Below the pieces are notes generated by a model. It was not told where the DNA came from. It saw only the letters and a list, made by a program, of their open reading frames with translations, and did no database searches. 64,000 bases of DNA, taken from the NCBI GenBank assembly GCA_963281255.1, contig OY725490.1, forward strand, positions 1,364,001 through 1,428,000, read 5' to 3'. The stretch comes from Aphrocallistes beatrix. Taxonomy: Eukaryota > Porifera > Hexactinellida > Sceptrulophora > Aphrocallistidae. The stretch's first letter is position 1; each line of letters starts with the position of its first letter. This document shows, in pieces, positions 19,301 to 63,953 of this stretch. The position numbers and the translations under genes are program-made.

Positions 19301-22300
19301 GTATCTTGATGGATCTCCACTAACTACTACTAATTCTAACCTTTACATTCACTCCACTATTCTGAATATCAACACTGACTATCAGTACTCTGTAACAGCT
19401 ATGAGCTGTGCTGGAAACTCTACTACCAGCTCGACTATTGTTAATTATGTTGCAAGTGAGTCTTTACTATATTTATAGTATTATACAAGCGCGCTTCGCT
19501 TGCTTGCGCTGCGCGGCTTGCAGACACTGTGTGTCCGCAGAGTCACCCTACGGGCGCCTGGAGTTACTCAATATAACCTATTTTGGGGATTTTTATTTAA
19601 TAATAATATTGTAAACGAAAGTTAACGAAAAATTTCTCAAATGGATCCAAAAATATGATATTCGAAATCTACACCCCTGAAAACCTCATGTCAACCGTTG
19701 AAAGCTAGTTTCTAGCATATTTTTGAGATTTGTTTACTTTATGCATCTATTGTAAACAAAAGTAAACAAATTAATTATCAAACTTACTCGAAAATATGAT
19801 ATTTGAAATCTACATCCCTGAAAACCCCTTGTCACCCGTTGGAAGCTAGTCTCTAGCATTATTTAAAGATTATGCGCGTATTTTCACACCTTTATATACA
19901 TATTTTCACACCATTTGAAGAATTTTGAAAAATATGCTAGAGACTAGCTTCCAACGGGTGATATGGGGTTTTCAGGGGTGTAGATTTCGAATATAATATT
20001 GAAAGTGAAAATGAAAGTTAATTGAAAGTGAAAATGAATTGGGATCAACCCTATTTATACTTTTCAAGCTAAGTCGTTCTAGGGATTCAAGGATTTTTTT
20101 GTGTGTGTTTGTCCGAATTGATTGAGGAATTGGGAAGTCATAGAGATGTGAAAATTGGCATGTAGGTGTCAAATGATATGACTACGATTAAGTTCTAAGA
20201 TCTAAGCAAAATTTTCACATCTCTGCAAAAAAAATGGAAAACAATTTTTCACACCTTTCCTATACAAAATAAATGACTGCACTATCACAATAGAAATCAT
20301 CGTACAAGTACGACACTACAATAAATAGATCGTCATTCTTATTAATACTTCAAAACCACAACTTATGTTTGATATCTTAAATGTATAATAGTGTATGGCA
20401 ATAAAAAAGATTATCTGCATATTTTCACACCTTTATATACATATTTTCACACCATTTGATGAATTTTGAAAATAATGCTAGAGACTAACTTCCAACGGGT
20501 GACATGGGGTTTTCAGGGGTGTATATTTCGAATATCATATTTTCAGATCTATATGATAAATATTTCTTTACCCATAGCCTGCTCTAATAATGCCTCACAG
20601 AAAATAACCAAGGATGCGGTAATAGCCGAATAGATTAATACACGATTAGCTTAAAATCGTTAACCATGTAGGATAGGCATTAAGAATGTATTACCAGCAC
20701 ATATAAACATGGTATCAAAGTACATATATCCGTTGTCAAAATTTCGATTAGTCATCATATCATTCCGCAACAGGTCATTTTAAGGACAATTTTGGCAATT
20801 TTCTAAGCTGTTTTAACCTTATTTCTAAATGGTATTAAGGTAGTATTTTTTGAAAAATTTAGAATTTTTCAATGGAATGTTGTTACATTCCTACGTTCCT
20901 ATGGTAAAGCATTTTGATCAGTTTGAGCCATATCCTGCAAACTATAAGAACTAGGTCTTCAAATTTGATCGTATTCAACGGCAATTGGCTACTTCCTATT
21001 AGGTAATAATACAATTTAAACTCTAAATTCAAAGACTATAGAGTTATGCGACAATTTGGTGTTATGGTTACATTCTTAAAATCAACTCATAACTCAAAAC
21101 TCGTTGAATTTAGAAGTTCAAGTTGTATAATCACCTAATAGGAAATAGTCCATTGCCTATCAAACACGATCAAATTTGAAGATCTAGTTACTACAGTTTT
21201 CACGAAATGGCCCAAACTGACCAAAATGCTTTACCATAGCAACGCAGGAATGTAAGAACATTCCATTGAAAAATTCTAAATTTTTCAAATCTACTCGTAC
21301 TAATCTTGGTTCAACACAAAAATCACACCTTAATACCATTTAGAAATAGGGTTAAACAGCTTAGAAAATCGCTAAAATTGTCCTTAGAATGACCTGTTGC
21401 GCAATGATATGATGACTAATCGAAATTTTGACGAATATATGTACTTTGAAACCATGTTTATATATGCTGGCAATACATTCTTAATGCCTATTCTGCATGG
21501 TTAACGAATTTAGGGTAATCGTGTATTAATCCATTCGGCTACTACTTTATCCCTAGTCCATAATTCATTGCTAAAGATTATTATAATTAAATAATCAATT
21601 CCAGTCCATGTCGTTAAAAGTTATTTTATGATCGAATTGATTGATCGTAGCATATAACACACTTTAATTGTTAACAATCAAATTATAGACTCAAAATAGC
21701 AGTATTCAATCATTTATATGAAATAGAATCGTGTGAATGGCATTATAAAAGGCTGATAATTGATTGGTTCACATAAACCAATGAATTTCAATCACAATTA
21801 GTTCTTTTGATTGTATGCATAAGTCAATACTATTTTATTCCAATGTATTTGCATTATAAAATAATCGAATTTGATTGGTCAGCACATTTTGTCACCTATC
21901 TCGGCGAGGTGTGAACATTTCGCTTAGATCTTCGAACTTAATCCTAGATTCACCATTTGACACGTACATACCAATTTTCGTATCTCTACGACTTGCCAAT
22001 TCTTCAATCAATTCGGACAAACAAACAAACAAACAAAAAAAAATCCTAGCAATTTTAATATATCAGATATACTTGTAGTTAGCTCCGTAAAGTGTATGAT
22101 ATATAGTATATTGATCCCAGGAAATTGTTCGGCCAAAACAGATCACTTATATGGCCTCTAGATTAATAGTAATGACGTCATCATATAATTACTGAACGTA
22201 TAATAATAAACTGATGTTCATATCACCCTGACTGCAGTATTCTATTGGAAGCAACCTGAGATTTATTTTCACTTTAAAATTTTCTAGCTCCTCCTTCTGC

Positions 22301-25300
22301 TCCTATCAGTCTACAGAGCTCTGTATCTAACTTCAACACAGCTACTTGCTCAGCTGACATATCTCTATCATGGAATACTCCTCCTAGCGACATAGCGGTA
22401 GATAGGTATTTCCTGTATTTTGATGGATCTCCACTAGCTACTACTAATTCTAACAGTTACATTCACTCCACTATTCTGAATATCAACACTGACTATCAGT
22501 ACTCTGTAACAGCTATGAGCTGTGCTGGTAACTCGACTACCAGCTCTTTGAGTAACCCAATCAATATCGCAGGTTAGTACAGTGAAGATTGGATATAACG
22601 ACGTACCATCGGGCAAGAGAAAAATGTCGTTATTTGCGATCTGTCACTATATCCGATCTTAGAGTCACACACACAATATACGCTTAGTAGTTCGCTCTGG
22701 GCATGGAAAAATGGTCGCTATTTGCGATTTGTCGTTATATCCAATCTTCACTGTATATATGTTATGGACTAAAGTGTAAATCGGCCAAGATTTGAGAGAA
22801 TCTTGACTGAGCCAAACTTTTGGTTGAGCCAAATGTTTCGCTGAGCCAAAAGTTTGGCTCAGTCAAGATTCTCTCAAATCTTGGCCGATTTACACTTTGG
22901 TCCATAGCATATATAGATATACGTATAACTTAGCTTTTGTCCTTCTTTGTATATCTTTTTATTTTCTTATCCTTTGTTCATTATTAAAGGTTATTCTCTA
23001 ATGAAAAGTTCACAGTTTGCTTGTCTCTCTTATAACAACGATACTGGAGTATTGAACATTAGTTGGGTGAGTTTAATTCTTGAATGTGTGAATGTGTGAA
23101 TGAAGAGACATTAATTAGAGTAAAATTGGTAAAATATTGAGAATTTTTCCTCAAAATATTCTAGTAATTTTTCAAATATCCCCTATACTGCCATTGAGAT
23201 CTCATTAATACCTCTAAATACAGCAATAGTTCCCAACCTTTTTGTATCGTTACAATATGCATATGATTTTGTACCATTAATTTCGATTCGCGATCGATAC
23301 AGACGATTTGATTCACTGACAATTTATTACACGATAGGTCGATATGTTGTCCAGAGTAAACATCAATTATTATTCATCATTCAAATATGTGCAAGTAAAT
23401 AGGACAATACTCGTGTAAACCTATCTTAACTTTCTGAGTGAAAGCGCAAATAACTTAAACATCAAAATTTTGACAACATCATTATGCAATACTTAACAAG
23501 ATATCAGGATCTCAACTGTTTTGACAGAAATGGTCCCCCCTGCAGAAATGGTCCGGGGGGACCATTTCTGACAAATATCCATGGTTCATGACAGAAATTG
23601 TCCCCTCTGCAGATTTGGTCCCCCCTCTTTTGCTATATTGTCGAGTCATCCCTGCTAGCATGATAGTCTTTATTTTACGCTATTATTTTCTTACATATTT
23701 CTTCAAAATTTCGCATCGTCATTCGGTTTGTTTGGAATTTAGTTCCATTTAGCTGAAACTTGGTTGTGAATATGCATTGGTTTTCTCTTACCTATAAACA
23801 ACTATATTTATAAATAAACACATCTCATTTGAACCTGCTACATTTTATCGTTGGCATACTCCTCAAAATATGGAATCTTCAGAGTACGAATGTTTATTAT
23901 CTTACTTGTCGACCGATTCTTATCCTCATGGGGTGACGAAAGGGCAGAAAAGAAGTTTGCGTAGGAAAGCTTCCAAATACCTTGCTATGAATGACAATCT
24001 CTTCAAGCTTTCTGAAGGCAAGAAGCTTCTTGTCATCAGAGCCTACTGGATTCTCTGCATTCGAATTAATGCATGGGTCACGTAAGCCGCGCCTCCCCAC
24101 TGAGGCAGAGAGTCTTGCTCGTCTCTATCCTGATGTAACTGTAGAAGAAGCACAATCCCATTTGAATGACTTCAATGAAGTTGAAACAACAGAACTGATT
24201 GAGTCTATGCAAGTTGCGCAAACTAGCGATCATGTTGCAGCTGGAAAATCTCTAACTCGTTCTAAGGAATTAATGAAAAGACAGTACGATAAGAAAATTA
24301 ACCCGATCAAATTCAATGACCTTAAAGAAACAGATGAAGTACTCATTGAAAATGTTTATCAAAAGAAAAAAGGAGGTAAATTTCATGATAAATGGCTTGG
24401 ACAATATCCAATTGCTGATGTGACCCGTAACACAGTTAAAGTACATCGGAACAAATCACTTCAACGCGTATAAAGATCTAAAGTCAAGCTCTTGAAAAGA
24501 CCTTCAACTACTAATTCCACTGACCAAGAAGAAAGACCAACTAAATGTCAGAGATTAGCTGTCGATATCGAAAAATCCACAATCGAATCATTGCTAATTA
24601 AAGATTCACCACCTATTGGTGCAGAAGAAACCGTATTTGCGACTTCTCTTCCTGAACCATCGCATCAGGAAATGATTAACAAACTCACTTCAATGAAGAG
24701 TCAAATTATGCACTCAATCCGAACGAATGTCCCGCTCTCTGATCTCCATCGAGAGCTCAACTTGCGACGAGATATGAAATTCATTGACTTATTCAATTGG
24801 CGAACTGACCATTACCCATCCACCTATCCAGTTAATAGTAATGACAGTCAGTTAGAAACCTCCTACGAAATGTCTAATTTGTTGGCTCAGTGGTATTTAG
24901 ATAGTTTTGAAGTAAAATACCAGAACACCAATACACAGATGAAGATTTCCAGTTTTCTTCTCACTGGGCAAGGGAGAGCATGGATTATTCTACCAAGATT
25001 CTGCTCCCTGTGGTTCAACAGCTGCTATTTACCTCACACACTTTGTCCAAAAGTGATTGTATTATGCTACCTACGCCTGCTTCAACTGACCTAGAAGATC
25101 TGTGTGTAACTTGGGGTGGTCAATTCGAAGGAATTGAATTAATCAACACTTGTCCTGTTGATAATTTCATAACTCTGCTAAGTTTACATTCTTATCAAAT
25201 ATCTGAAGCTCTTCGCTTATCTGATGTTTCTCCAACAACCAGTTTGCAAACTATGTTATCTCATATTGAACACCGTGAATTCGACGAATTGAGGATATGG

Positions 25301-28300: not shown

Positions 28301-31300
28301 CCCTAGCCTCCGAACACCTTAGACATCACTCGCCGCTTGTTCTTATCCATCGATTTTTTTCTAATTTGGAACCCTATTTTTAAACTTCTAGCTACACCCC
28401 TGTCGGTGCATATAGGGTGATGCTCGAATGTTTCTGAATATAAACACAATTACTTATATCCAAGTCTGAGACTTTTATCCGTTTCTACATTTAGGATTTG
28501 GACTCATCACCAGGAAGAGAATTAGACATAACGTATTCTCTTCAACTTTTTTACACTCACAGGAGACAGAACATAGAACAAACATACAACGACAATGCTA
28601 ACTTCACTCTACTATCCTCTCAATCCCGATATAGTACAAATATAACTGTTGCAAACTTTACTCAACAAGATGGAATAGCGACAAACATTACAGCTAACTT
28701 GGCTATAGAACAACAGTGTGGACAGTCATTCAGTGGAATGACAATGAACTGTTTCTTCGACTCTAGTAAGTTAACTGTTTTAGATGCATATTTACAATAT
28801 TAATGATATAAGAAAGACACTCAAGCGATTATTTTGTACTCTCGTTTTTTAATAGCTTTCGACCAATACGAAATCTACATAATTAAGTATTTATGTCCAA
28901 AAGTTTTCCCATCACAAATCATTTTTGATTTTGCAAAAGCTAATATCAATATACCTTTGGAGAATACTTTCTTTACATAACAATCAAAGAGTTTTTAATC
29001 TGACCATTTGGCATAAGATGTAATAATTTGTCCTACGCTCACAATATAATTCATTTTCTATCTATTTATTCTATTCATTCATTTTATGTCTATTCATTCA
29101 TTTCATATATTTTATCCAGTCATATATCACATGTATTAAATGGTTATAAGTAATTGTGATTCCTAATTAACACATGGGTTTTCCGACCTACTTCTTACGT
29201 TTTCGAACTTATTCCTACTTCAACTTTCGAACTTATTCCGCATCTCCCCGAAATTGGCGATAGTTCTACTTTTTGGATATGTAGACGTTATTTCTGTTCC
29301 CACAATTGTACTGTCCAGCATTTCAATGAGATATCCGTAAGAAGAAAGCGAACTAATGCCGCGGCCCCCTCAAAATTCAATGCGTCTCAAAATTCTATGC
29401 AATCCCTGGTTCAATAACACTATGTCTCAAAATTATACGCAACAACCCTAATGTTAGAGACATCACTGGTTTAGGCGATCTAGTTTATGATAGGCATCAA
29501 TAGTGCACTGAAAAGGATTTTAAATAATATCTGTTTATATATCCTGTACAATAATTTTACAATCTATTTATAGATAATCCTCCTACTCCACCTACTCCAC
29601 CTACTCCTACAGATCCAGGTATTTTTACATACCGTATTAGCATGAACATAGCCTACTCTAATAATGCCTCACAGTAGACTGAAAATTATGGACTAGGGAT
29701 GAAGTAGTAGCCGAATGGATTAATACAGACAAGGCTGGATTCGGTTAACCGCCGTCAATCACGGTTAACGGTTAAGAAAATATTGGATCGGTTAGCCGAT
29801 CTGCTTTATTTTCTAAATATTTAGACTAATTTCATTGTTTTTCGATGAAGATTCATGAATATTATACTTCTAAAATTTTGTTATTACAATATTATTACAA
29901 TTTTTCTAACCATATAGTATATTTCGAGACCACTGAAGATTGTAAATTTTTCAATATCAGGTTCAATATTTGTCGACAAATCCATATTTATACTAATTAA
30001 TATTGACATCGGTTAACCGGTTAACCGCCCTGGAGGAAACCAAAATAACCGACCCCGAATATCGGTTAACCAACCCCAGCCCTGATACAGATTAGCCTAA
30101 AATCGTTAACCATGCAGAATAGGCATTAAGAATGTATTACCTGCATATATAAACATGGTATCAAAGTACATATATCCGTTGGAAAAATTTCGATTAGTCA
30201 TCATATCATTGCGCAACAGGTCATTCTAAGGACATTTTTAGCGATTTTCTAAGCTGTTTTATCTCTATTTCTAAATGGTATTATGATGTGATTTTTGTGT
30301 TGAACCAAGATTAGTACGAGTTGATTTGAAAAATTTAGAATTTTTCAATGGAATGTTGTTACATTCCTGCGTTGCTATGGCATTTTGGTCAATTTGGGCC
30401 ATTTCGTGCAAACTGTAGTAACTAAGTCTTCAAATTTGATCGTGTTTGATAGGCAATGGACTATTTCCTATTAGGTGATTATACAACTTGAACTTCTAAA
30501 TTCAACGAGTTTTGAGTTATGGGTTGATTTTAAGAATGTAACCAAAACACTAAATTGTCGCATAACTCTATAGTCTGTTAATTTAGAGTTTGAATTGTAT
30601 TATTACCTAATAGGAAGTAGCCAATTGCCTATCAAATACAATCAGATTTGAAGACCTAGTTATTACAGTTTGCAGGATATGGCTAAAACTGATCAAAATG
30701 CTTGACCATAGCAACATAGGAATTTAACAACATTCCATTAAAAATTCTAAATTTTTCAAATCAACTCGTACCAATCTTAGTTCTACACAAAAATTATATC
30801 TTAATAACATTTAGAAGTAGCCTTAAAACAGCTTAGAAAATTGGCAAAATAGTGCTTAAAATGACCTGTTGCGCAATGATATGATGACTAATCGTGTATT
30901 AATCCATTCGGCTATTACCGCATCCTTGGTTATTTTCCTGTGAGGCATTATTAGAGTATGCTATGTCATGAATAATGCACCCATTGACTCTTAGATTATG
31001 GTTTATACTAATTATAACTATCTTTGTAAGTTATTTTCTACAAGCGCGCTTCGCTTGCTTGCGCTGCGCGCGGCATAAGAACACTGCGTGTCCGCAGAGT
31101 ATCACTGTAAGTCCTAGGGATATTCAAGAAGCGACGATTGCTTTTCTAATTCTCTACTAAAAATGTCATTTATCTACAGTTAATAATGAATTCAGAACTA
31201 ATATACTCAAAATAGCTGTATTCAATCATTTATATGAAATAGAATCAGTGTGAATCGTATTATAAAAGTCTGATCATTGATTGGTTCTGACATGAACCAA

Positions 31301-37300: not shown

Positions 37301-40277
37301 CTGAAGTTCATCTGATTAGTTTCTGGTGTAAGATGGTCAATGCGTACCTCGAAGTATCTAAACTGGCAATTAGACTGCTACTCCCATTTCCTTCCACTTA
37401 CTTGTGTGAATCCGGTTTTTCGACACTATTTCACATAAAAACCAAACACAGGAATCGATTGTCTGTTCAAGACGGCATACGATGTACAATTGCAAATACT
37501 TCGCCTGTTATTAAGAAGCTAGCTGCATTGAAGCAATCACAACCATCTCATTGAGACACGTAATTTATTATAATATAATTCTACTCCTCAAAGCAATTCT
37601 TTCTAGTAAAATAAACATTAATATAATAAACTCAACTATACTTTTTCACAGGGGTACGCGGGAAATTCTCCTATCTCGAAGGGGTACGTGAGTTAGGAAA
37701 GGTTGGGAACCAATGATCTAGGCTGACAACATTTTGATCACAATAGTCAGAAAATGAACTAAATAGAGTGTGTTGTTGTCCTAAAATGACTAAAAAGACT
37801 TGTAATTACTATCTTTGAATATAATCAAACCAGTTTGGGCAGAATTATTAATCATTCTATAATTCATAAAACAAATGCAAACTATATACTACTATTAAAA
37901 TGGTTTTTTAAGTGTTTATATTTCATTTTAATTAAACGGTAAAATAGTTGTAATATATGGAACAACAATATAATCATGATTAAAAAGTTGGTTGCAACGA
38001 TACATACGTGAGTATGTTAACAGTATTAATTTAGACCTTTTAAATTATCTCTATTTAGCTATTGCTGGTGGTATTATTGCAGGAGTTGTCCTTATTTCCA
38101 TAATTCTAATCATAATCTTCCTAATCCTGGCAATCTACATTTGTTACTTGAAGAAAAGAACAGATCAAAGTTAGTTTCAGCTTTCTCAGTCAGTGTTTAA
38201 ATTAATTGTATCTTCACTAACAGAATACTCTCATCCTCTAGGTCACAAGCCTCCACACATCGGAATGAAAGAGTAAGCTACTAAGAAAATAATTTGCCTA
38301 AATATTTGATACTGTATTACCATACTTTTGTTTATAGTTGATAGTCTGATTCCTTGATTTACAATGATAGTAAATATGCTACTGTTAAAACGTCAAATCA
38401 GTTATCTTATACAGTCGACTCCGCTTAATAGGGTTACTGTTTAATCGGGTCAACCGCTTAATCAGGCCACTTTTGGCAGGACGAGAATAGCTCTCACACA
38501 TAGAAGCTAATGCAAAATATTTTCGGTTAATAGGGTCATCCGCTTAATCGGTTCGAAATGTCCTCAGACCGATGTGACCCTAATAAGCGGAGTCGACTGT
38601 ATATTTAAACGCAATGTTTTTGTTTGTGCAAATTGATTGATTGATTTAGTAGAAAACAAGAAAGCGACGTATTGTTTCTCTAACATCCCCAAATGCCCAA
38701 TGAGTAACTCTGCCGCGCATCGCAAGCCTGGAAGTTCCAGGCATTTCCATCAGTTATTATGCATAATGCCTGAATTTTTCATCTATTTACATAATATCTG
38801 ATTTGACTTTTTAACGGTAACATATACAAGTATATTTATTTCAAATTTTCACAACATTTTACTCTGATGTCTAATTAATGATTTTGCTAATGAATTTTGC
38901 TATCAAGAGGATATTCATGTTCTGAATTGATCTCTTCTTCTATTAACTTATTTATAATATTTCTGCATAGGTTTGATTCCCCAACACATAATGAACCAGA
39001 ACAATACAGGACGATTGCCGAGAAAACTAATGCTAACGAGGTACTAACAGTATACAATCCATATACCTGGGATGTACTCGATTTATAAAATACAAAAATA
39101 AGAAGAGTATTTCATTTCAAATTCACCTTTCATTAACCTAACTTTTTGCTAAGTCAATTCAATTTTTCCCCTTTCTCTCTCTATGGCCATGATTTCTAGA
39201 AATCTTCTGATATTTACTCAATTTAACCATATTATTTAGTTAAATTCTATTCGATTAACAATATATACGCGTATATCCATTTTTACTTCTCAACGTTATA
39301 ACGTTGAATCTGACTACACTGTTAGTGTATACGGATTTTATACATCTCATTAAGTTGCAGAAGACACATTTACTCTATTGTGTTCATTCCATATAATTAA
39401 TGTTTACAATCCTTCACATTTGTCTTTCCAACTAAAGCAGCGTATTGATTATCTCACTTCTTCGTAGATAAGTTCTGAGTGATTATCTTGTTGCCATGTT
39501 TTGTCCCTTACTTGATTACTGTTTTACACTTCCTGGACAAAAGTATTCGTATACCCCAAAATTTACCATACAAATAGTTATAATACTAAGTTTTTAGCGA
39601 GTCAAGGGCATTTAATTTGTAAGAGATACGCTTAATTTAACTTCAAATTCGAATTCTCCATATTCGAATTACTCTTTTTATAATCTTTCCACTGGATTAA
39701 TCTTCCACAAGGTTAAATATTTTCAAACTGTGCCACCTCGTACCACTAATGCCATCATATACAATGGTGATATGTGCTATAGGGTAATGAATAAATTATT
39801 TAATTTTGAAGGAGAGTAATTAAGTTGACAGCTTATGAAGTGAGTAATTTGAATGTGAAGGAAACGAATTTAAGCTAGATTTAGTATATCCGTTACTGAT
39901 TAGATGTTAAGACTTCACACATTGATTAGTAATATACTTTTTGGGTGGAAAATAATGGGTGTACGTATACTTTTGTCCAGGGAGTGTATAAGTCTCTAAG
40001 ATATAAATACTATTTTATCCCAAAGGAAAACTTAAAAAGAAGAAGTGTTTAATAAATATTTCCTCCTAAATATACTTGTTATTTTTCACATTAACGTTTC
40101 CAACTCTCTCTATATTCTCTCTATCCGTAATAGGAAATGAACTACGCGCAGATTGACCATAGCATCGGCAAGGGATCTGCTGTGAGGCCTCCAGCTATGC
40201 CGCCTACTAACTATGCTGAACTATCTGAGTTGTCATCTCAGGCTACTCACTACTCCACTGTCAGCCAGCCTAATTGA
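13257..40277 (+). CDS. Receptor B: Ig-like/FN3 single-pass receptor with tyrosine-motif tail (12 exons)
   Basis: Exons: 13257-13329, 16754-17122, 19177-19455, 22288-22572, 22990-23066, 28495-28765, 29574-29618, 35190-35219, 38059-38169, 38242-38272, 38971-39040, 40134-40277. Together they total 1785 nt (594 aa plus stop) with every junction in frame and GT-AG. Order: signal peptide, Ig-like domain, FN3, FN3, third FN3 split by a phase-0 intron, Pro/Thr hinge, TM helix, basic KKR stop-transfer, cytoplasmic tail. The tail has QYRTI, MNYAQI, TNYAEL and THYSTV; the last fits the ITSM pattern TxYxxV/I. I infer a plasma-membrane receptor recruiting SH2 proteins. Ligand unknown. Introns carry many MITEs, an hAT element and a Ginger-like element. 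Exon choice is by eye; extra or alternative exons are possible. Confidence 0.8.
13408..16640. repeat. Composite insertion in receptor B intron 1
   Basis: Receptor A intron 1 reads straight from CTGAAAA to AATTATAATAAGC; in B these points lie 3.2 kb apart. The insert holds Helitron-like copies (13560-13720, 15289-15440, 16250-16360, 16385-16596), a repeat shared with 21560-22040 and 55545-55920 (13730-14270), and AT-rich DNA at 14280-15280 where I see no gene. Confidence 0.7.
16385..16596 (+). mobile_element. Helitron-like short element, internally deleted but with both ends
   Basis: Starts TCCTTACTATTAAAACTCGA after an A and ends in a hairpin near CAAGCGAAGTTCGCTTG followed by T. Compare full copies at 31316-31855 and 63419-63953. 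Confidence 0.6.
16754..17122 (+). CDS. Receptor B exon 2, Ig-like domain
   Basis: Acceptor TATATTCTAG|GT, donor GCTG|GTATGT, phase 1 to 1. Cys in ITVACVL and LRLGCYVDYF are the likely Ig disulphide pair. An N-glycosylation sequon (NGSS) lies near the end. Differs from receptor A at P/S and T/A positions. Confidence 0.8.
17123..19176. other. Receptor B intron 2
   Basis: 17129-18110 shows no recognisable repeat or gene. 18117-18425 is a partial copy of the repeat also at 10977-11700 and provides the empty site for the MITE at 11166. From 18641 the 141-bp tandem array begins. Confidence 0.5.
18641..19870. repeat. 141-bp tandem repeat array around FN3 exon 3
   Basis: The landmark TATTCGAAATCTACACCCC (or close variants) recurs at 18641, 18782 and 18923, then at 19659 and 19800, an exact 141-bp period. 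Units contain TAAACAAAAGTAAACAAATT. A partial unit runs into the acceptor of the FN3 exon at 19177. Inverse copies occur near 19925 and 20460, and fragments near 55.25 and 57.87 kb. Confidence 0.75.
19177..19455 (+). CDS. Receptor B exon 3, FN3 domain 1
   Basis: Acceptor TTTATTTAG|CTCC, donor GCAA|GTGAGT, phase 1 to 1, 279 nt. FN3 hallmarks ISLSWNTPPSN and DYQYSVTAMSCAG. The exon sits inside a 141-bp tandem repeat array that abuts its acceptor. Confidence 0.8.
20570..21563. mobile_element. Long-TIR fold-back element, copy 2
   Basis: Left end TCTAATAATGCCTCACAG. Both arms share AACATGGTATCAAAGTACAT and its inverse. The right end is truncated. Same family as 10091-12180 and 29641-30970. Confidence 0.65.
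21560..22040. repeat. Dispersed repeat also at 10977-11700, 13730-14270, 18117-18425, 27040-27265 and 55545-55920
   Basis: Recognised by TTGTCACCTATCTCGGCGAG at one side and TTCAATCATTTATATGAAAT within. Occurs in both orientations. No coding capacity. Element class unknown. Confidence 0.6.
22288..22572 (+). CDS. Receptor B exon 4, FN3 domain 2
   Basis: Acceptor TTTTCTAG|CTCC, donor CGCAG|GTTAGT, phase 1 to 1, 285 nt. Very similar to exon 3, so a recent exon duplication. A MITE starts at intron position +8 and its TA target lies inside the donor region. Confidence 0.8.
22580..22753. mobile_element. Pogo-type MITE at a splice donor
   Basis: 174 bp with ends CAGTGAAGATTGGATATAAC and its inverse, TA on both sides (22578-22579 and 22754-22755). 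The left TA is intron position +6/+7 of receptor B intron 4. Confidence 0.8.
22763..22906. mobile_element. 144-bp near-perfect palindromic MITE
   Basis: Ends TATGGACTAAAGTGTAAATC and inverse, with GCCAAACTTTTGG blocks near the centre. Would fold into one long hairpin. Confidence 0.65.
22990..23066 (+). CDS. Receptor B exon 5, first half of FN3 domain 3
   Basis: Acceptor ATTAAAG|GT (weak pyrimidine tract), donor TTGG|GTGAGT, entering phase 1 and leaving phase 0. Encodes SSQFACLSYNNDTGVLNISW, ending at the B-strand Trp of an FN3 domain. Continues in exon 6. Confidence 0.65.
23870..24473 (+). pseudogene. Integrase remnant (gypsy/Ginger type), catalytic core deleted
   Basis: Begins MESSEYECLLSYLSTDSY and LRRKASKYLAMNDNLFKL, resembling the region just before the zinc-binding part of such integrases. 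A frame change near 24010-24030 joins it to the post-catalytic region GFSAFELMHGSRKPRLP, then RQYDKKINP, then KFHDKWLGQYPIADV, which resembles the GPY/F module after the core. The DDE core is missing, so it is not functional. Confidence 0.55.
24492..25906 (+). pseudogene. Accessory ORF of the Ginger-like element, putative papain-fold cysteine peptidase
   Basis: A basic, low-complexity N-terminus (RPSTTNSTDQEERPTKCQRL) in the frame of 24492-25094 is followed, after a frame shift near 24935, by a frame open to 25906. The second part has INTCPVDNFITLLSLHSYQ (candidate catalytic Cys), two CxxC pairs (CWSCC and CLKCR) and a late HHGLHFSLITKLQDDWYAYD (candidate His with the W-x-YDG context seen in C19-like or OTU-like peptidases). 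Fold and activity are inference. It could also be spliced rather than frameshifted. Confidence 0.5.
26160..26723. repeat. TTCGCTTATTAGCAAG fold-back repeats and a 68-bp MITE
   Basis: 26160-26560 has many direct and inverted copies of CGCTTATTAGCAAG. At 26656-26723 a 68-bp palindrome starts CAGTAGAGTTCGCTTATTAG, ends with its inverse and is flanked by TA. The second looks like a minimal derivative of the first. Confidence 0.7.
26724..28494. repeat. Receptor B intron 5, right part: dispersed repeats
   Basis: 27040-27265 is a copy of the CTCGGCGAG repeat. 27285-27315 is a TIR piece of the fold-back element at 32001. 27480-27760 has (TGTA)n and a block repeated in inverse at 33600-33830. 27960-28060 has GACGGACGGACG repeats. 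No gene seen. Confidence 0.5.
28495..28765 (+). CDS. Receptor B exon 6, second half of FN3 domain 3
   Basis: Acceptor TACATTTAG|GATTTG (phase 0), donor CTCTA|GTAAGT (phase 1), 271 nt. Contains ITYSLQLFYTH and NCFF near the end, with several NxT/S sequons. It is split from exon 5 by a 5.4-kb intron holding the Ginger-like element. Confidence 0.72.
28766..29573. other. Receptor B intron 6
   Basis: AT-rich. A short CGAACTTATTCCTACTTC repeat at 29190-29250 resembles the array near 13.0 kb. No gene. Confidence 0.4.
29574..29618 (+). CDS. Receptor B exon 7, Pro/Thr hinge
   Basis: Acceptor TTTATAG|AT, donor CCAG|GTATTT, phase 1 to 1. Encodes NNPPTPPTPPTPTDP, a stiff stalk between the FN3 domains and the membrane. 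Short, so chosen mainly on frame and position. Confidence 0.6.
29641..30970. mobile_element. Long-TIR fold-back element, copy 3, with nested insertion
   Basis: Both ends carry TACTCTAATAATGCCTCACAG-type sequence in inverse orientation (up to 20 nt matching at a time). Inner arms match those of the copies at 10091 and 20570. Confidence 0.7.
29730..30084. mobile_element. hAT-like MITE nested in the fold-back element
   Basis: 355 bp. Starts CAAGGCTGGATTCGGTTAAC, ends CCCCAGCCCTG, with ATACAGA on both sides (7 bp visible). Rich in GGTTAACCG. Without it the host element reads as in copy 2. Confidence 0.7.
31316..31855 (-). mobile_element. Helitron-like short element, near full length
   Basis: About 540 bp. 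On the minus strand it begins TTATCCTTACTATTAAAAC and ends with the hairpin region GCAAGCAAGTGAAGCGCGCT then TG. Nearly the same along its whole length as 63419-63953. A shorter partial copy lies at 31041-31110. Confidence 0.65.
32001..33044. mobile_element. Fold-back element with ATCGGTCGACAGACCGAT ends
   Basis: TIRs of nearly 50 bp contain a perfect ATCGGTCGACAGACCGAT palindrome followed by AGTGCAGCTCC. The interior holds inverted and direct copies of a unit with GGTGTGAAAATA, CTCGCTTTTAGCTC and TACTTTCAAAGTG. More units of the array continue to 33235. Confidence 0.65.
33233..33518. mobile_element. MITE with 8-bp target duplication
   Basis: 286 bp. CTAAGTTGACAATTC at the left, GAATTAGTCAACTTAG at the right, flanked by ATATACAT. 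It interrupts a unit of the GGTGTGAAAATA array. A fragment recurs near 59.87 kb. Confidence 0.75.
34109..34404. mobile_element. Pogo/Tigger-type MITE, right end eroded
   Basis: Starts CAGTGCACCCTCGCTAATCC after TA. The inverse GGATTAGCGAGGG ends it, but the last bases are lost. The interior repeats AATCCGAAC. Confidence 0.65.
34405..35189. other. Receptor B intron 7, right part
   Basis: A short copy of the CTCGGCGAG repeat lies at 34460-34570. The rest is AT-rich with no gene. Confidence 0.4.
35190..35219 (+). CDS. Receptor B exon 8, juxtamembrane linker
   Basis: Acceptor TTTTTTATAG|GT, donor GCTG|GTAAGT, phase 1 to 1. Encodes GPEMPIVPAA. Micro-exon supported by strong splice sites and phase. 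Confidence 0.55.
35380..37715 (+). mobile_element. hAT transposon (BED-finger type) in receptor B intron 8
   Basis: 2336 bp. Starts CAGTGGTTCCCAACCTGGGG, ends AGGTTGGGAACCAATG, flanked by the perfect 8-bp duplication ATCTAGGC (35372-35379 and 37716-37723). Carries a decayed transposase in the same direction as the receptor. Confidence 0.9.
35783..37554 (+). pseudogene. hAT transposase with BED zinc finger (ZBED5-like), decayed
   Basis: ATG at 35783 (MASGKKR, then TGA at 35804-35806). A BED finger follows: CVICLKTLSADSMKP with HFETCH. After a frame change near 36005 come SAIEASYVISLKIAQQKKPH, QLDESTDVASCAQLICFARY (first Asp region), GVCTDGAPAMLGRHSGFQ (second Asp), and LHCMIHRHALAAKTLPP. The hATC dimerisation domain is PSTYLCESGFSTLFHIKTKH at the end. 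Stops near 36165 and 36723 and further frame changes make it inactive. Domain order matches the ZBED5/FAM200-type transposases of vertebrates. Confidence 0.8.
38059..38169 (+). CDS. Receptor B exon 9, transmembrane helix
   Basis: Acceptor CTATTTAG|CT, donor CAAA|GTTAGT, phase 1 to 1. Encodes about 27 hydrophobic residues (GGIIAGVVLISIILIIIFLI onwards) followed by CYLKKRTDQ, a positive stop-transfer that places the C-terminus in the cytoplasm. Confidence 0.8.
38242..38272 (+). CDS. Receptor B exon 10, cytoplasmic linker
   Basis: Acceptor CATCCTCTAG|GT, donor AAGA|GTAAGC, phase 1 to 2. Encodes SHKPPHIGMK. Small, supported by phase continuity with exons 9 and 11. Confidence 0.6.
38412..38599. 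mobile_element. Pogo-type MITE (GCTTAATAGGG family), copy 2
   Basis: 188 bp, same ends as 8450-8637, TA on both sides. In receptor B intron 10. Confidence 0.8.
38971..39040 (+). CDS. Receptor B exon 11, tail with YRTI motif
   Basis: Acceptor TTCTGCATAG|GT, phase 2 in, phase 0 out at CGAG|GTACTA. Encodes FDSPTHNEPEQYRTIAEK and NANE. The donor is weak. If it is not used, reading continues in frame to a stop at 39086-39088, ending VYNPYTWDVLDL, which gives a short-tail isoform. Confidence 0.65.
39527..39986. mobile_element. Tc1-type MITE in the last intron of receptor B
   Basis: 460 bp. CACTTCCTGGACAAAAGTAT at the left, ACTTTTGTCCAGGGAGTG at the right, TA on both sides. These ends resemble Tc1-family termini. 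No transposase. Confidence 0.75.
40134..40277 (+). CDS. Receptor B exon 12, tail with three YxxI/L/V motifs
   Basis: Acceptor TATCCGTAATAG|GAA, phase 0, 47 codons then TGA. Motifs are MNYAQI, TNYAEL and THYSTV. Colinear with the last exon of receptor C: each has Y-x-x-I-D-H first, P-T-x-Y-x-x-I/L second and Y-x-x-V/L near the stop. Confidence 0.8.
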   Translation, partial: EMNYAQIDHSIGKGSAVRPPAMPPTNYAELSELSSQATHYSTVSQPN

Positions 40278-50223: not shown

Positions 50224-51534
50224 CGTAGGGCACTCGAAAAGTTTTGACGTTTGCTATGAAACCATTAATCTAGAAGAAAGATTTATTGCTAATTCGTTTC
50301 ATTCTGCGGTTATTAGCATACACTGAAAATTTCATTCATTTATCTTTCATACTTTCAGAAATATTTGACTTGTTAGTCTGCATGGCTTCTAACTTGCTTG
50401 CATCATCCTCAGATTTCACAAGACGTGATTTTCGTGCAATGATTTTGATTTTATTCAAAATGAAGAAGACGAGGCAGGAGATCCATGAAACTTTACAGGA
50501 ACATTTCCTAGATGTTGCTCCTTCTTTGAGTACAATTGAGCGATGGTACAGAGAATTTACTCATGGGAACTTCGTTCTGGAGGATGCTCCTCGTGCAGGG
50601 AGGCCGAGTGTTTCCCACAATGAGCAAAATGTGGATCAAGTATTGGAACTAGTGATCCAGGATTCTCATGTTACATACGCTCAGATAGAGCATGAAACTG
50701 GCCTCTCATCGGGGACTATTAATACCATTATACATAAATAACTTTGTCTACGAAAGTTGTGTGCCCGCTGGATCCCCCATTCTTTGACTTTAGAGCAAAA
50801 ATCGGCCCGAGTTGACTTTCGCAAAATTATGCTCAAAAGATTTAATAATGGAACTTCAAGGGCTGTTTCGGATATTCTTACAGGGGATGAAACATGGATA
50901 TACCATTATGATCCGGAAACAAAACAACAATCGAAGGAGTGGGTGGAAGAAGATGCTCCACCCCCAACAAAAGTACGAAGGGCGAAATCTGTAGGGAAGC
51001 AAATGTGGGCAATTTTTTTCAGATCCAGTGGGTTTGTAGCAGCTGTGGCGCTTGAGGATAGAAAAACAGTTACTGCCGATTGGTACACCACAGTATGCCT
51101 CCCCAAAGTCATCACAGAAATAAATTCACAGCGTGAAAAGACGGGCGTCAGGGGAATTTTGCTCCATCATGATAACGCATCATCTCACACCGCACTCAGA
51201 ACTCGCGAGTTTTTGGAAGATTGTGGACTTAGAACACTGCCCCATCCTCCCTACAGTCCAGACCTAGCCCCTTGCGACTTCTGGCTGTTCCCTACGATAA
51301 AGAATGAGTTGCGTGGAAGGAGATTTTCATCGAATGAGGAGCTGGCGGGGGCACTTTTCAAGGTAATCGAAGCCATACCCAAAGATGAGTGGAAAATGTG
51401 TTTTCAGAAGTGGTTTGGTAGAATGAAAAAATGTATAGAGTCTCATGGAGAGTATTTTGAAAAAATGTAATATAAATCTTCATACTAACTATTTGATATG
51501 TAGGTGAACGTCAAAACTTTTCGAGTGCCCCTCG
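50224..51534 (+). mobile_element. Mariner transposon, nearly complete
   Basis: 1311 bp. TIRs of about 28 bp (left CGTAGGGCACTCGAAAAG, right inverse with CGAG end), flanked by TA at 50222-50223 and 51535-51536. Single transposase ORF inside with one nonsense codon. Confidence 0.9.
50382..51470 (+). pseudogene. Mariner transposase (DD34D) with a single in-frame stop
   Basis: ATG at 50382 (MASNLLASSSDFTRRDFR). The frame is open except TAA at 50739-50741. N-terminal helix-turn-helix domains include SLSTIERWYREFTHGN and DAPRAGRPS. Catalytic residues are DILTGDETWIYHYDPETKQQ (D1), LLHHDNASSHTA (D2) and HPPYSPDLAPCDFWLF (D3) with 34 residues between D2 and D3. At about 361 codons it is near the normal mariner length of 345. 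Young copy by its intact TIRs and frame, but inactive as read here unless the stop is an assembly error or is polymorphic. Confidence 0.88.
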
Positions 51535-53948: not shown

Positions 53949-54401
53949 TCACAAAATCACACACCCCGCATCTGTAGTGGTTGCATTTGTTTGTAACGAA
54001 CTGATCGTAGCCGTGTAGTTAGCAGTGTCACTGTGCTGGTATTTGGCGTACTGGAATGAACCACTCGACATACTAATGTAAGTTTGGTTTTCGTAGTTCT
54101 CGGAATAAATGCGAATCTTACATTGATTAATGCCTAGTCCACACACGGTGTTGCTATCGATTTTCTGGCTACAAATCGGACATTTTAGGTTATTTACTTG
54201 GGCATTGAGGGTACAACGTCCTCCGGAATCTTGGAAGAATCCTTTAGCTATCCAAACGTCTTCATTATGCGCTTTACAAGAGTAATTCTGACAGCGACCC
54301 TCAATGTTCAAGCCACGAGACACTTTTCTCCAGTCAGGAGCAGGAGTGGTGCTAAAAGACAGTTCTGCGAAAGATACTTTTGAAGACAAATTTTCAGCCA
54401 T
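53949..54401 (-). CDS. Small Cys-rich zinc-ribbon-like protein 3
   Basis: ATG at 54401 (MAENLSSKVSFAELSFS), 150 codons, the longest copy. Core GLNIEGRCQNYSCKAHNEDV, GRCTLNAQVNNLKCPICSQ, DSNTVCGLGINQCKIRIYS. Six or more conserved Cys positions in three pairs (CxxxxC, CPIC, CGLxxxxC) suggest metal binding. C-terminus ends TTTDAGCVIL. The ending CVIL resembles a CaaX-type prenylation box (C-aliphatic-aliphatic-L, geranylgeranylation type), which the pseudogene copy at 46571 also has. Function unknown. Confidence 0.78.
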   Translation of the reverse strand: MAENLSSKVSFAELSFSTTPAPDWRKVSRGLNIEGRCQNYSCKAHNEDVWIAKGFFQDSGGRCTLNAQVNNLKCPICSQKIDSNTVCGLGINQCKIRIYSENYENQTYISMSSGSFQYAKYQHSDTANYTATISSLQTNATTTDAGCVIL

Positions 54402-56389
54402 TTTTATTAGTGTAAAATTTATCTTTGCGAAAGTTGCGAATTGTTAGTATTCTACATTAAACTCACGTACTTATACCTGTATAGAGATTGATTAATGCAT
54501 ATAGAATGAGTCATATTGTAAGAAACTACATTAAGAATGAGTCATACTAGTTGCTTTATATTTTGCTACATAGCAATACTATAGGAACTCTCAGAGTATG
54601 TTGTGTATTGCTAATAGGGCTGATAGCATTAAATTAGAAGTATCAGAATAACATTGTTCTATATCAGACTTAATTAGTGTCCTTTACTGGTAATGGGTTG
54701 GAATCGGGATTAAATTCCCTGAACCCGAGTATGATTATGGAACTGAACCCGACTCGAGTCACCCGATCGGAAACAATAATTTATATTTTAGACATAACTA
54801 AAGTGCTTAAATTGCACTAAAACAATCTCTGTTTTTGTGTTTGGCGCTGAATGGAATATCTCTAGTGCTAAGACAGTCTCCGGCGAAAGTAGACTTCTGC
54901 GTTCATTAACCATTGTCCACCTTAATCACTAACTCGAACCTGAACCCAATTCCAACTCTGCTGGATACTCTCTCATACAAATAACCAGCTGCAGGACGAT
55001 GAACAAATCACAACCCTCTGATTTATTCGTTCAAGCAGATAAAAGGTGTTATGATTTATTCTCTTGCATATGATTGTTTCATTCAGTACATAGACGCCCC
55101 AGCCAACATAGAATGAGATTATAAAGGTGGTTAATATTATGGTAAATAATAGAAGAGAAAGAAAGCGATGGGATTTGGGTCAATTGAGTATAATCCCATA
55201 TAAGTAAAAGTTTAATTAAGCATTATTATATCCTTTTTCTGATAGAGACTAGCTTCCAAAGGTTGACATGGGATTTTCAGGGGTGTAGATTTCGAATTCT
55301 TTTTATTATGGACCTAACCTTTTTTCTCCAGTTATGAATTCATTATTCACTGTAGATGAATGACGTTTTTAGTGTGCTTCCTATAGTATTAGTATAGTAG
55401 CATAGCTACCATACTAATAGTATAGGATGCACAGTACTAAAATGAGGATGTTCCGGCCGGCCGGCCGTCCGAAATTCGTGTCCTGACCGGAGTTTAAGAG
55501 ATATCGTCTTGAAATTTTTACAGTAGGTGCAAAGTGATATGGAGATGTGCACCTCGGTGTTCACACCTCGCCGAGTTCACACCTCGCCGAGATAGGTGAC
55601 AAAATGTGCTGGCCAATCAAATTCTATTATTTTATAATGCAAATACATTGGAATAAAATAGTATTGACTTATGCATACAATCAAAAGAACTATTTGTGAT
55701 TGAAATTCATTGGTTTATGTGAGAACCAATCAATTATCAGCCTTTTATAATGCCATTCACACGATTCTATTTCATATAAATGATTGAATACTGCTATTTT
55801 GAGTCTATAATTTGATTGTTAACAACAATTAAAGTGTGTTATATGCTACGATCAATCAATTCGATCATAAAATAACTTTTAACGACATGGACTGGAATTG
55901 ATTATTTAAGTATAATAAAGGTGACTTATGAGATTTGGAAGCACACTTCCATCCCGTCTGTGGGGGTTTTTTTATTAGTAGTGAATTATAAAACAATCAA
56001 CCTTCTCTGATAGAACGCAGAGTGACTCTGCGGACATCTAGTGCCCATAAGCAAGCGAAGCGTGCTTGTTTATTGTAAATAAGCAAACTTCCTACAGCAG
56101 GACCTCATTAAAACGAACATATAGAGGAAGGTCGAAATTTGCTCGTATTTTCTTGAATTCGTATTAACCAGAGTGACTTATTTTCCTCTCTGTACACTTT
56201 ATAATTGAAGATAAGGATTTAGATTGAAACAAATTGAGAGAACTTTACAATACACAACATCAATACAAACAGAATAATCTAAGGTAAAATTTACCAACAT
56301 TAAGCCTAGCTGTATCAATGCATAGCTACTACATCCACACATAATATAAAGAAATACAAACAGCATTTCATCCTGCCACACAATGCTAA
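54402..56389. repeat. Duplicated upstream region
   Basis: The 5' flank (TGAGTCATATTGTAAGA, then TTGCTTTATATT and GGTAATGGGTTGGAATCGGG) is shared by all zinc-ribbon copies. 55372-55974 is an insertion absent from the next copy. It includes a (GGCC)n palindrome at 55453-55465 and the CTCGGCGAG repeat at 55545-55920. No other gene. Confidence 0.5.
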
Positions 56390-56767
56390 TCACAGTGGAC
56401 TGATGTTAGCGATGTAACCAGCAGTGTCAGTGTGCTGGTATTCAGTGTACTGGAATGAATCAGTGGACGATGCGGAAATCTCTATCTTGCACTCAAAAAT
56501 GCCTAGTCCACACACGGTGTTACTATCGATTTTCTGATTGCAAATCGGACATTTGAGATTCTTTACCTCAGTATTGAACGTACAACGTCCTCCGGTATGT
56601 TCAAGGAACCTTTTAGCTATCCAAACCTTTTCATTATACGCTTTACATGAGTGATTCTGACAGCGACCCTCAATATTCAAGCCTTGAGACACACTTCTCC
56701 AGTCAGGACCAGTGGAGTCAAAAGTCTTTTTGGCAAAAGATAATTTTGAAAATAAATTTTCAGCCAT
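56390..56767 (-). CDS. Small Cys-rich zinc-ribbon-like protein 4
   Basis: ATG at 56767 (MAENLFSKLSFAKKTFDS), 125 codons. Core GLNIEGRCQNHSCKAYNEKV, GRCTFNTEVKNLKCPICNQ, NTVCGLGIFECKIEIS. Ends YIANISPL, without the CVIL tail of copies 2 and 3. Forms a close pair with the next copy, 2127 bp away. Confidence 0.78.
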   Translation of the reverse strand: MAENLFSKLSFAKKTFDSTGPDWRSVSQGLNIEGRCQNHSCKAYNEKVWIAKRFLEHTGGRCTFNTEVKNLKCPICNQKIDSNTVCGLGIFECKIEISASSTDSFQYTEYQHTDTAGYIANISPL

Positions 56768-58516: not shown

Positions 58517-58894
58517 TCACAGTGGACTGATATTAGCGATGTAGCCGGTAGTGTCAGTGTGTTTGTATTCAGTATACTTGAATGAATCAGTGGACGATGC
58601 GGAAATCTCTATCTTGCACTCAAAAATGCCTAGCCCACACACGGTGTTACTATCGATTTTCTGACTGCAAATCGGACACTTGAGATTCTTTACCTCAGTA
58701 TTGAACGTACAACGTCCTCCGGTATCTTCAAGGATCCCTTTAGGTATCCAAACGTCTTGGTTATATGCTTTACAGGAGTGATTCTGACAGCGACCCTCAA
58801 TATTCAAGCCTTGAGACACACTTCTCCAGTCCGGACCAGTGGAGTCAAAAGTCTTTTTGGCAAAAGATAATTTTGAAAATAAATTTTCAGCCAT
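58517..58894 (-). CDS. Small Cys-rich zinc-ribbon-like protein 5
   Basis: ATG at 58894, 125 codons, differing from the copy at 56390 at about ten positions (for example NQDVWIPKGILEDTGGRC against NEKVWIAKRFLEHTGGRC). All Cys are kept. Differences spare the metal-binding core, which suggests selection. Same 3' UTR with TTGTAAAG instead of AATAAA. Confidence 0.78.
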   Translation of the reverse strand: MAENLFSKLSFAKKTFDSTGPDWRSVSQGLNIEGRCQNHSCKAYNQDVWIPKGILEDTGGRCTFNTEVKNLKCPICSQKIDSNTVCGLGIFECKIEISASSTDSFKYTEYKHTDTTGYIANISPL

Positions 58895-62937: not shown

Positions 62938-63066
62938 TTACAGACTGGCATATTGATTAGTCTCAACGTGGTCTATATTACTATAGGGAGTAGGCGAGAT
63001 GTTTGGAGCCATCACTATTTTTCCAGCATGTGGGCCATGATCTATCTCCGAGTACTTGAGTTCGAT
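62938..63066 (-). CDS. Receptor C last exon
   Basis: 42 codons plus TAA, with three tyrosine motifs (KYSEI, PYSNI, QYASL). Strong acceptor CTTTCCACAG. Confidence 0.75.
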   Translation of the reverse strand: MELKYSEIDHGPHAGKIVMAPNISPTPYSNIDHVETNQYASL

Positions 63067-63318
63067 CTGTGGAAAGAAATTGATAGAAATAATTAGATAA
63101 AGGATGGATAGTTATTTGCATTTACCATTTAAATAGTAATATTGAAATGAATTGTATTGGGAATTAGAAGTGTTGGACTGATACCAGTAGTACCAAAGCT
63201 GTGTGTCGATTCGCTCATAAGTATATATTGACTTTTAGTTAGTACATATTGCTATTACCTTGTCTTCCACCACAGGTCCAGGTATCCTGGTTACGTTACT
63301 GTAAGGATTTTCTATTCC
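62938..63318 (-). CDS. Receptor C, 3' end: cytoplasmic tail exons with ITIM/ITSM/ITAM-type motifs
   Basis: Two minus-strand exons: 63259-63318 (acceptor CTCAG|GGA, donor AAG|GTAATA) and 62938-63066 (acceptor CTTTCCACAG|ATC, stop TAA at 62938-62940), joined in phase 0. The first encodes IENPYSNVTRIPGPVVEDK, the second IELKYSEIDHGPHAG onwards to NQYASL. The tail is homologous to exon 12 of receptor B. LKYSEI fits the ITIM pattern, TPYSNI fits ITSM, and YSNI plus seven residues plus YASL fits the ITAM spacing. The ectodomain and TM lie beyond the right edge. I infer a third member of the receptor family, convergent with B. Confidence 0.75.
63259..63318 (-). CDS. Receptor C penultimate exon
   Basis: 20 codons with NPYSNV. 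The exit phase matches the last exon. The start at 63318 is the first AG that leaves an open frame; an acceptor slightly upstream is possible. Confidence 0.55.
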
Positions 63319-63418
63319 CTGAGATCTACTCAAATAATTAGATTAAAATATAAATATCAGTTCAAAGCAATATACAGTAAATATTGGATAAGATATAATT
63401 TCCACACCAGTTATTGCT

Positions 63419-63953
63419 ACAAGCGCGCTTCGCGCTTGCTTGCGCTGCGCGGCTGGCGAACACTTCGCGTCCGCCGGAGGCTCCCTTCGGTCACCTGGAG
63501 TCACATTGGTTAATTATAAGGGAAATACATCTCTAAATATGTCTATTCTACTGTGCTAATCGATATCACTCGAAAAATCACCAAATTTGTGAATTTAAAA
63601 ATTTTTGATGCGTAATGATGACGTCATAACAAAGTGATGAGTCATCATTTTTTATGATAGTCGTATCATATGTGAGACATGTTAGTATACAGATTCTATT
63701 AAAATTTCAGCCTTCTATCTCCTATAATGGCTGAGTTATGCCCGAATAACTGTGTTGCTTAACTTTTAAAAATGTGACAATGACGTCATAATTCCATGAT
63801 GAGTCGACATTTTGCTCTGAGCTCAGAACTTACTGGAGCCATAGCCAAAATACTCCCACATGCCAAAAATTAGCTTTCTATGACCGGCAGTTTCTTCAAT
63901 CAATTCGTTACAGATATATATACACAATAATCGAGTTTTAATAGTAAGGATAG
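63419..63953 (-). mobile_element. Helitron-like short element, near full length, in receptor C intron
   Basis: About 535 bp. Minus-strand start ATCCTTACTATTAAAACTCG, end hairpin region GCGCAAGCAAGCGCGAAGCG then CTTG. Aligns along its length with 31316-31855. Confidence 0.65.

Follow-up and report, generated by a model that had tools for sequence, protein, structure and literature searches.

Paired ITIM- and ITSM-type tyrosine motifs in the predicted tails of a clustered receptor family from a glass sponge

Two exons at the right end of the stretch of 64,000 nucleotides analysed here (the window, C3:1364001–1428000 in an assembly of 100.5 Mb and 28 contigs) appear to code for the intracellular tail of a type I receptor, one member of a large, tandemly arranged family in a glass sponge. 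The tail carries an ITIM-type and an ITSM-type motif, and the comparison with its paralogues supports the view that both patterns are real and under constraint. The predicted gene very probably codes for a membrane receptor with such a constrained tail. The full mechanism that we propose for the family, with a phosphatase docking to the paired tyrosines, seems to us reasonably likely.

Gene structure and tail motifs

The last exon of the focal receptor (exon 10, 62938–63066, minus strand) follows an acceptor CAG and encodes IELKYSEIDHGPHAGKIVMAPNISPTPYSNIDHVETNQYASL and a stop codon (62938–62940, minus strand). The preliminary description had recognized an ITIM, an ITSM and an ITAM consensus pattern in this tail, and the minus-strand reading of the exon bears out all three. 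LKYSEI (63043–63060, minus strand) fits [SIVL]xYxx[ILV]; TPYSNI in the same exon (62974–62991, minus strand) fits TxYxx[VI], its tyrosine being located 23 residues past the tyrosine of LKYSEI; and seven residues separate YSNI from the terminal YASL (62941–62952, minus strand), which is the ITAM-like spacing that had been claimed. The penultimate exon (exon 9, 63259–63325, minus strand) encodes the membrane-proximal part of the tail. It is entered in phase 2, left in phase 0 through the donor GTAATA and carries PYSNV (63292–63306, minus strand), and motifs of the same type, YSxV, are also present in the paralogues 1150k, 1216k, and 1285k (tails are named here by their approximate position on contig C3 in kb). 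Both tail exons are flanked by GT/AG splice sites. The motifs had been assigned to the interval 62938–63318 and are real within it, although exon 9 starts at 63325 and not at 63318 and an intron of 192 bases lies between the two exons.

In 20,000 shuffles of the focal 83-residue tail an ITIM appeared in 22% of the sequences, TxYxx[VI] in 3.6%, the ITAM spacing in 0.7%, and all three together in 0.02%. For a version of 81 residues that lacks two residues at the junction, the figures are 22%, 3.8%, 0.8%, and 0.05%, respectively. A lone ITIM therefore means little, but the combination, and above all its conservation, is not a matter of chance.

Using splice signals and reading phase, a gene of 10 exons on the minus strand can be predicted that runs past the right edge of the window, with its upstream exons at C3:1428583–1435224. 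Nine of nine introns are GT–AG, and the joined 1,473 bases translate into 490 residues with a single stop at the end. The predicted order is signal peptide, Ig-like domain, two FN3-like domains of which the second is split over two exons, a stalk rich in proline, threonine and serine, membrane span, mini-exon, and the two tail exons. The signal peptide exon was chosen by hydrophobicity and phase and is uncertain. The mini-exon of 31–34 bases is required because the phases of its neighbours mismatch: splicing the membrane-span exon straight to the PYSNV exon was considered and fails, as the former ends in phase 1 and the latter needs phase 2. Mutually similar candidates of 34 bases with the donor GTAAGT lie 59–68 bases past the membrane-span exon in 1225k, 1246k, 1150k, 1285k, and 1216k. 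The focal candidate has 31 bases, lies 292 bases past the membrane-span exon and shows weak likeness to the others; the candidates of 1606k and 1456k match poorly. In this in-frame predicted model the tail belongs, as had been proposed, to a protein with a membrane span.

Conservation of the tyrosine motifs

Every paralogous tail found in searches at the DNA and protein level with the focal and the sister tails lies on C3. Ten copies of the focal type (type A), including the focal tail itself, are readable in that the frame is open through both motifs. The tails of 1156k, 1159k, and 1455k (C3:1156895, 1159455, and 1455510) are disrupted or degenerate, and the statistics on the ten copies exclude them; two of these copies share one lesion and thus were copied after it arose. 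The tail 1456k, whose frame reads on beyond the usual end of the family, was trimmed at this end and kept. Three type A-like tails postdate the statistics and were not added.

Among the ten readable copies identities fall to 31%, and distant pairs have dN values of 0.3 to 0.9. In the alignment Y5, I8, H10, V18, P21, T26, and Y28 are invariant in all ten, and with both core tyrosines present throughout, the expectation that the tyrosine positions would be conserved across the family was borne out. In the first motif the tyrosine and the isoleucine at +3 are found in every tail, and position −2 is leucine in eight and phenylalanine or methionine in the other two. In the second motif threonine and tyrosine are likewise found in every tail, followed at +3 by isoleucine (eight tails), methionine (one), or leucine (one). 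Mean pairwise identity is 0.87 in the six motif columns versus 0.50 elsewhere (p = 0.0018), and 0.91 versus 0.52 (p = 0.006) when only the tyrosines and the +3 positions, i.e., four columns, are considered; both p-values come from 20,000 column draws and are indicative only, because the paralogues are related and not independent. For the tail exon as a whole the median pairwise dN/dS, 0.69, is only moderately below 1, and 9 of the 42 usable pairs have values above 1; the constraint thus acts on the positions of the motifs and not on the tail in general. At the first tyrosine all ten copies use the codon TAC, so that silent change cannot be demonstrated at this position; the second tyrosine is encoded by TAT in eight copies and by TAC in two.

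The spacing of the two motifs was scanned with [SIVLMF]xYxx[ILV] and TxYxx[ILVM] in 4,334 six-frame open reading frames from 264 kb including the window. Pairs with tyrosines 23 residues apart occurred 13 times (12 family tails and one unrelated frame), compared to 0.465 on average over 200 shuffled sets, and the other spacings from 14 to 45 occurred 0 to 3 times each in the same reading frames. Four tails examined after the scan all contain both motifs; the three type A-like ones among them (LLYADL...THYADL, VMYAEL...TRYAEI, and VLYAEL...TRYAEI) have the spacing 23, and the fourth has 22. Since similarity to known tails led to these later ones, they are not a blind sample.

Of the proposed grammar of ITIM, ITSM and ITAM, the first two elements are thus kept across the paralogues, whereas the third is kept in four of the ten readable tails. 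These four (focal, 1150k, 1216k, and 1285k) end in Y[AV]SL, and the last three of them fit YxDI-x8-YVSL. At the position of the terminal tyrosine codon 1225k, 1246k, and 1606k have TAA and 1044k has TGA; the remaining two tails differ. With Yxx[IL]-x(6-8)-Yxx[IL] in this minority of tails we rejected the ITAM as the main, family-wide reading; as a reading of the tail family it would be weak. Matching of patterns would not by itself have revealed this difference, given that shuffled focal tails contain an ITIM in 22% of cases.

Two more types of tail were found. Type B, with three copies that are all on C3, reads VMYAEL...TKYSEI and has a tyrosine spacing of 23 in two copies and of 22 in one. 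In type C the membrane span and the tail share one exon, and the tail carries YEYI or YECI, YVPM, and a terminal YANLK. There are at least 31 type C matches in the genome, 30 of them on C3 (949337–1611931) and one on C6 (1344541), and they lie mostly outside the window. Six copies were seen whole, for example those at C3:1449819 and C3:1598520; five contain YVPM, in one copy as six repeats, and the sixth contains YVLM; of two copies seen in part, one has YVHM. By its sequence YVPM would be a PI3K-type motif, opposite in type to the ITIM and the ITSM.

LKYSEI, PYSNI, YASL, YVPM, and YANL all fit a tyrosine followed at +3 by a bulky hydrophobic residue, and could therefore be YxxΦ endocytic sorting signals for clathrin adaptors in recycling adhesion or scavenger receptors. 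Such signals, however, depend neither on a threonine or leucine at −2 nor on a fixed distance from a second signal, whereas in the type A tails the threonine is invariant, the leucine is present in eight of ten and the spacing is nearly constant. We therefore regard a role in sorting as unlikely and favour the reading as phosphotyrosine docking sites for SH2 domains.

The receptor cluster

Domains were mapped with profiles built from the exons over the 264 kb that include the window. Genome-wide, the N-terminal domain has at least 94 matches, 80 on C3:0.52–1.83 Mb and 14 elsewhere, and the FN3b exon has at least 70, of which 70 of 70 are on C3; all genome-wide counts are lower bounds from a first-look filter, in which split exons are counted twice in places. 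The cluster thus spans 1.3 Mb of C3. Split tyrosine phosphatase exons were also observed inside the cluster interval (C3:1014690–1016085). Three N-terminal-domain matches at C3:1686738–1695306 have equal scores, in inverse order, to three at C4:2024449–2033017; this may reflect either a segment that was duplicated recently or a haplotype retained in the assembly.

The preliminary description spoke of an FN3/Ig receptor family. A large clustered family is indeed present, but the names of the domains need qualification. The FN3 matches (E 5e-5 to 0.0018, 19 to 24 bits) stay below the Pfam fn3 cut-off of 25 bits, and for this reason we use the term FN3-like; the FN3b half domain has no match in Pfam. 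The N-terminal domain has three invariant cysteines in nine aligned copies and no Ig match in a Pfam search. Its predicted structure contains strands at low confidence (pLDDT 53) with a best fold match at E 0.11, which is not significant. We call this domain Ig-like, the Ig fold being unproved.

The outer, N-terminal domain shows divergence (median identity 41%, dN 0.56, dS 1.18 over 20 copies) and the FN3a exon is alike among copies (21 copies, median identity 84%, dN 0.09, dS 0.13). These values suggest that the stalk has been homogenized, for example by gene conversion, while the outer domain was free to vary. Among usable pairs the ratio dN/dS exceeds 1 in 6 of 139 for the outer domain and, for FN3a, in 28 of 205, which does not demonstrate positive selection.

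It is conceivable that SH2 docking is the right reading of the tails and that the genes nevertheless are ordinary adhesion or developmental receptors whose tandem cluster arose by neutral expansion. The few outer-domain pairs with dN/dS above 1 would agree with this, and FN3-like stalks are typical of adhesion receptors. On the other hand, about 80 copies of the N-terminal domain on one contig, a diverged outer domain on a stalk that is alike among copies, and the presence of two opposite classes of tail are more reminiscent of recognition complexes than of adhesion genes in single copy, and for this reason we consider this reading improbable.

The window itself contains parts of two more members. 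The second member is on the plus strand. Its tail exon has a coding stretch at 40134–40274 (plus strand) that reads EMNYAQIDHSIGKGSAVRPPAMPPTNYAELSELSSQATHYSTVSQPN; it is 31% identical to the focal tail and keeps both tyrosines and their 23-residue spacing. The matched stretch of its membrane-span exon (38061–38156, plus strand) is followed by the donor A|GTTAGT, which the focal gene also has. An N-terminal Ig-like domain exon (16756–17121), two FN3-like exons of the FN3a type (19182–19451 and 22293–22547) and a stretch of the FN3b type that forms the second half of an FN3-like domain (28510–28716), all on the plus strand, are assigned to this member by order and strand only. To a third member on the minus strand, whose other exons run to the left, belongs an Ig-like domain exon at 9043–9408 and possibly an FN3-like domain exon at 310–570 (minus strand). 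At the two N-terminal-domain exons, which are on opposite strands, there are inverted repeats (9031–9521/16643–17133, 491 nt, 99%; 9517–9847/13081–13411, 331 nt, 100%) that point to a recent inverted duplication of receptor exons.

Several other elements were observed in the window. The G+C-rich interspersed repeat CGCGCAGCGCAAGCAAGCG has 12 sites between 8108 and 63451 with at most two mismatches, where none are expected by chance, and one copy (63433–63451) lies directly upstream of the focal tail exons. Three related small open reading frames (MAENL...) with cysteine pairs are located at 53949–54443, 56390–56767, and 58517–58894 (minus strand), and in the one that was scanned the zinc-ribbon matches were weak and below cut-off. 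A transposase frame in two pieces lies at 50274–51470 (plus strand), its second piece matching Pfam DDE_3 and Transposase_1.

The mitochondrial code fits the earlier suggestion that the organism is probably a sponge and, more precisely, fits a glass sponge (Hexactinellida). In COX1 on the mitochondrial contig C28, AGA aligns with serine in five cases, alanine in three, glycine in three, asparagine in one, and arginine in none of 12; ATA aligns with isoleucine in 18 of 37 cases and with methionine in two, and TGA with tryptophan in 11 of 12. The alignments would thus have AGR read as serine, AUA as isoleucine, and UGA as tryptophan. For glass sponges, PMC2267718 describes AGR read as serine and AUA favoured for isoleucine, the AGR change being given there as absent in demosponges and other lower metazoans and present in some bilaterians.

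Candidate signalling partners

Profile searches of the genome gave at least 62 matches for SH2 and at least 155 for tyrosine phosphatases. At C8:160.3–163.2 kb two SH2 exons are followed by two tyrosine phosphatase exons, which is the order of an SHP-type gene. The best match of the first SH2 exon is PTPN11 (247 bits versus 186 for PTPN6). The phosphatase exon holding HCSAGIGRTG matches receptor-type phosphatases at the top (262–281 bits, two stretches each) and then PTPN11 (241 bits, one stretch). The SHP-type phosphatase that had been named as a possible partner hence has a candidate in this genome, an SHP-2-like gene. At C12:2.71 Mb an SH2–iSH2–SH2 reading frame is p85-like, with the p85 inter-SH2 model matching at E 7e-5, below the cut-off of the model. 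One SH2 domain is joined to a tyrosine kinase in a single gene at C16:488.6–490.6 kb, which looks Src-type by its kinase sequence; an SH3 domain was not seen in the stretch examined.

The Syk-type kinase, also named as a possible partner, fared differently. Among the SH2 and kinase matches listed, both of them lower bounds, no gene with tandem SH2 domains followed by a kinase was seen, and no group of SH2 domains spaced at most 3.5 kb apart has a tyrosine kinase within 20 kb downstream on the same strand; the kinase at C16:490182 has two SH2 matches upstream among them, 12.6 kb apart. Three loci were considered as Syk and discarded: C17:544–549 kb contains two SH3–SH2–SH3 genes, which are Grb2-like, the frame at C12:2.71 Mb is p85-like, and a frame at C11:1.649 Mb (C11:1648601–1651300) has three SH2 domains and no kinase match, making it an unusual adaptor. 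A mixed or activating tail, in which YSNI and YASL would together act as an ITAM and attract a Syk-type kinase, agrees with the YxxI-x7-YxxL of the focal tail, with the YxDI-x8-YVSL of three paralogues and with the Syk-family kinase reported for the demosponge Amphimedon (PMC9601881), but the final YxSL in only four of ten readable tails and the lack of a tandem SH2 plus kinase gene among the matches listed make it very unlikely.

Dense tandem arrays of open frames, mostly of about 600–900 residues and many with two tyrosine phosphatase domains, were seen at C15:65–277 kb and C2:51–87 kb. Large open kinase and phosphatase frames are consistent with the many single-exon transcripts of a glass sponge, for which PMC10282587 gives 12,409 beside 19,578 genes.

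Discussion

The two SH2 domains that SHP-2 has in tandem bind paired phosphotyrosines, and YxxM is a binding site for p85. Starting from these activities we suggest the following scheme. The receptor would meet a ligand on another cell, and Src-type kinases would phosphorylate both core tyrosines. In type A and type B tails the phosphotyrosine pair, 23 residues apart, would then hold a phosphatase of the SHP-2 type by both of its SH2 domains, and the docked phosphatase would dampen or redirect signalling. The sister tails with YVPM might recruit PI3K, so that the cluster would pit opposing signals against each other. Based on the tail sequences and the SHP-2-like gene we consider SHP-2 docking probable. 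The role of the cluster would most plausibly be cell or self recognition, although for self recognition itself we put this forward tentatively. More tentative still is the idea of a complex like that of the NK receptors or of histocompatibility, with dozens of recognition domains mounted on ITIM/ITSM tails for SHP-2 or on YVPM tails for PI3K. If it were true, balanced inhibitory and activating tyrosine signalling in self recognition would already have existed in the last ancestor that sponges share with the other animals, or the same balance would have re-evolved from a shared SH2 toolkit.

The aggregation factor is the usual candidate for recognition in sponges, and the cluster offers a concrete candidate for cell recognition that is distinct from it. 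In this one assembly the receptor genes are clustered and diversified as in polymorphic allorecognition complexes. In the literature searched, which took in few subscription journals, no title or abstract reports such receptors in a sponge, and a search on allogeneic fusion of glass sponges returned nothing useful. Sponge receptors with Ig-like domains are said in PMC2248247 to increase after grafting; the present family differs from the receptors described there in being without a kinase domain, in being clustered and in having tyrosine-motif tails.

Among vertebrate receptors PD-1, the Siglecs and PECAM-1 have one ITIM followed about 23–25 residues on by one TxYxx[VI], with SHP-2 as partner. 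The layout of the sponge tail is alike, whereas searches of Pfam and of solved structures revealed no relation of the ectodomain to vertebrate ITIM/ITSM receptors. The YVPM of the sister tails, with six repeats in one copy, resembles the co-receptors CD28, DAP10, and CD19, which bind PI3K p85 by YxxM; in contrast to these the sponge YVPM tails share a cluster with ITIM/ITSM tails and end in YANLK.

Two receptor systems of invertebrates, both likened here by description, come closest. In Hydractinia 40 Alr or Alr-like genes are reported on chromosome 3 (PMC11876637), and ITIM and ITAM motifs are reported for candidate alr genes (PMC12065747). As in the sponge, the genes are clustered on one chromosome or contig and ITIM motifs occur in the family; the Alr receptors belong to the immunoglobulin superfamily, which the Ig-like domain of the sponge receptors may resemble. 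Hydractinia belongs to another phylum, however, and the sponge family has FN3-like domains, a fixed ITIM-23-ITSM pair and YVPM tails. The FcoR proteins of Botryllus are described as clustered type I receptors of 520–610 residues with Ig domains and with ITIM, hemITAM or YxxI/L/V tails (PMC12065747). Clustering, a predicted type I topology and tyrosine-motif tails recur in the sponge, and the Ig-like domain may be a further likeness, but FcoR combines V-type Ig, sushi and C2-type Ig domains, whereas the predicted sponge receptor has one Ig-like and two FN3-like domains and joins the ITIM with an ITSM on one tail.

By analogy the sponge receptors would work like the vertebrate ITIM/ITSM receptors, Alr and FcoR; we do not count them as members of any of these classes, because the make-up of the ectodomain differs, the Ig fold is unproved and the comparison with Alr and FcoR is by description. 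Sponges have been the missing point for this signalling scheme, and the cluster described here has ITIM/ITSM tails and PI3K-type tails in a genome with an SHP-2-like gene. The tyrosine-motif grammar may, as had been suggested, be old or else have arisen independently. Paired tyrosine motifs are brakes in vertebrate immune cells, and the sponge cluster hints that this scheme either is of greater age than has been assumed or evolved more than once.
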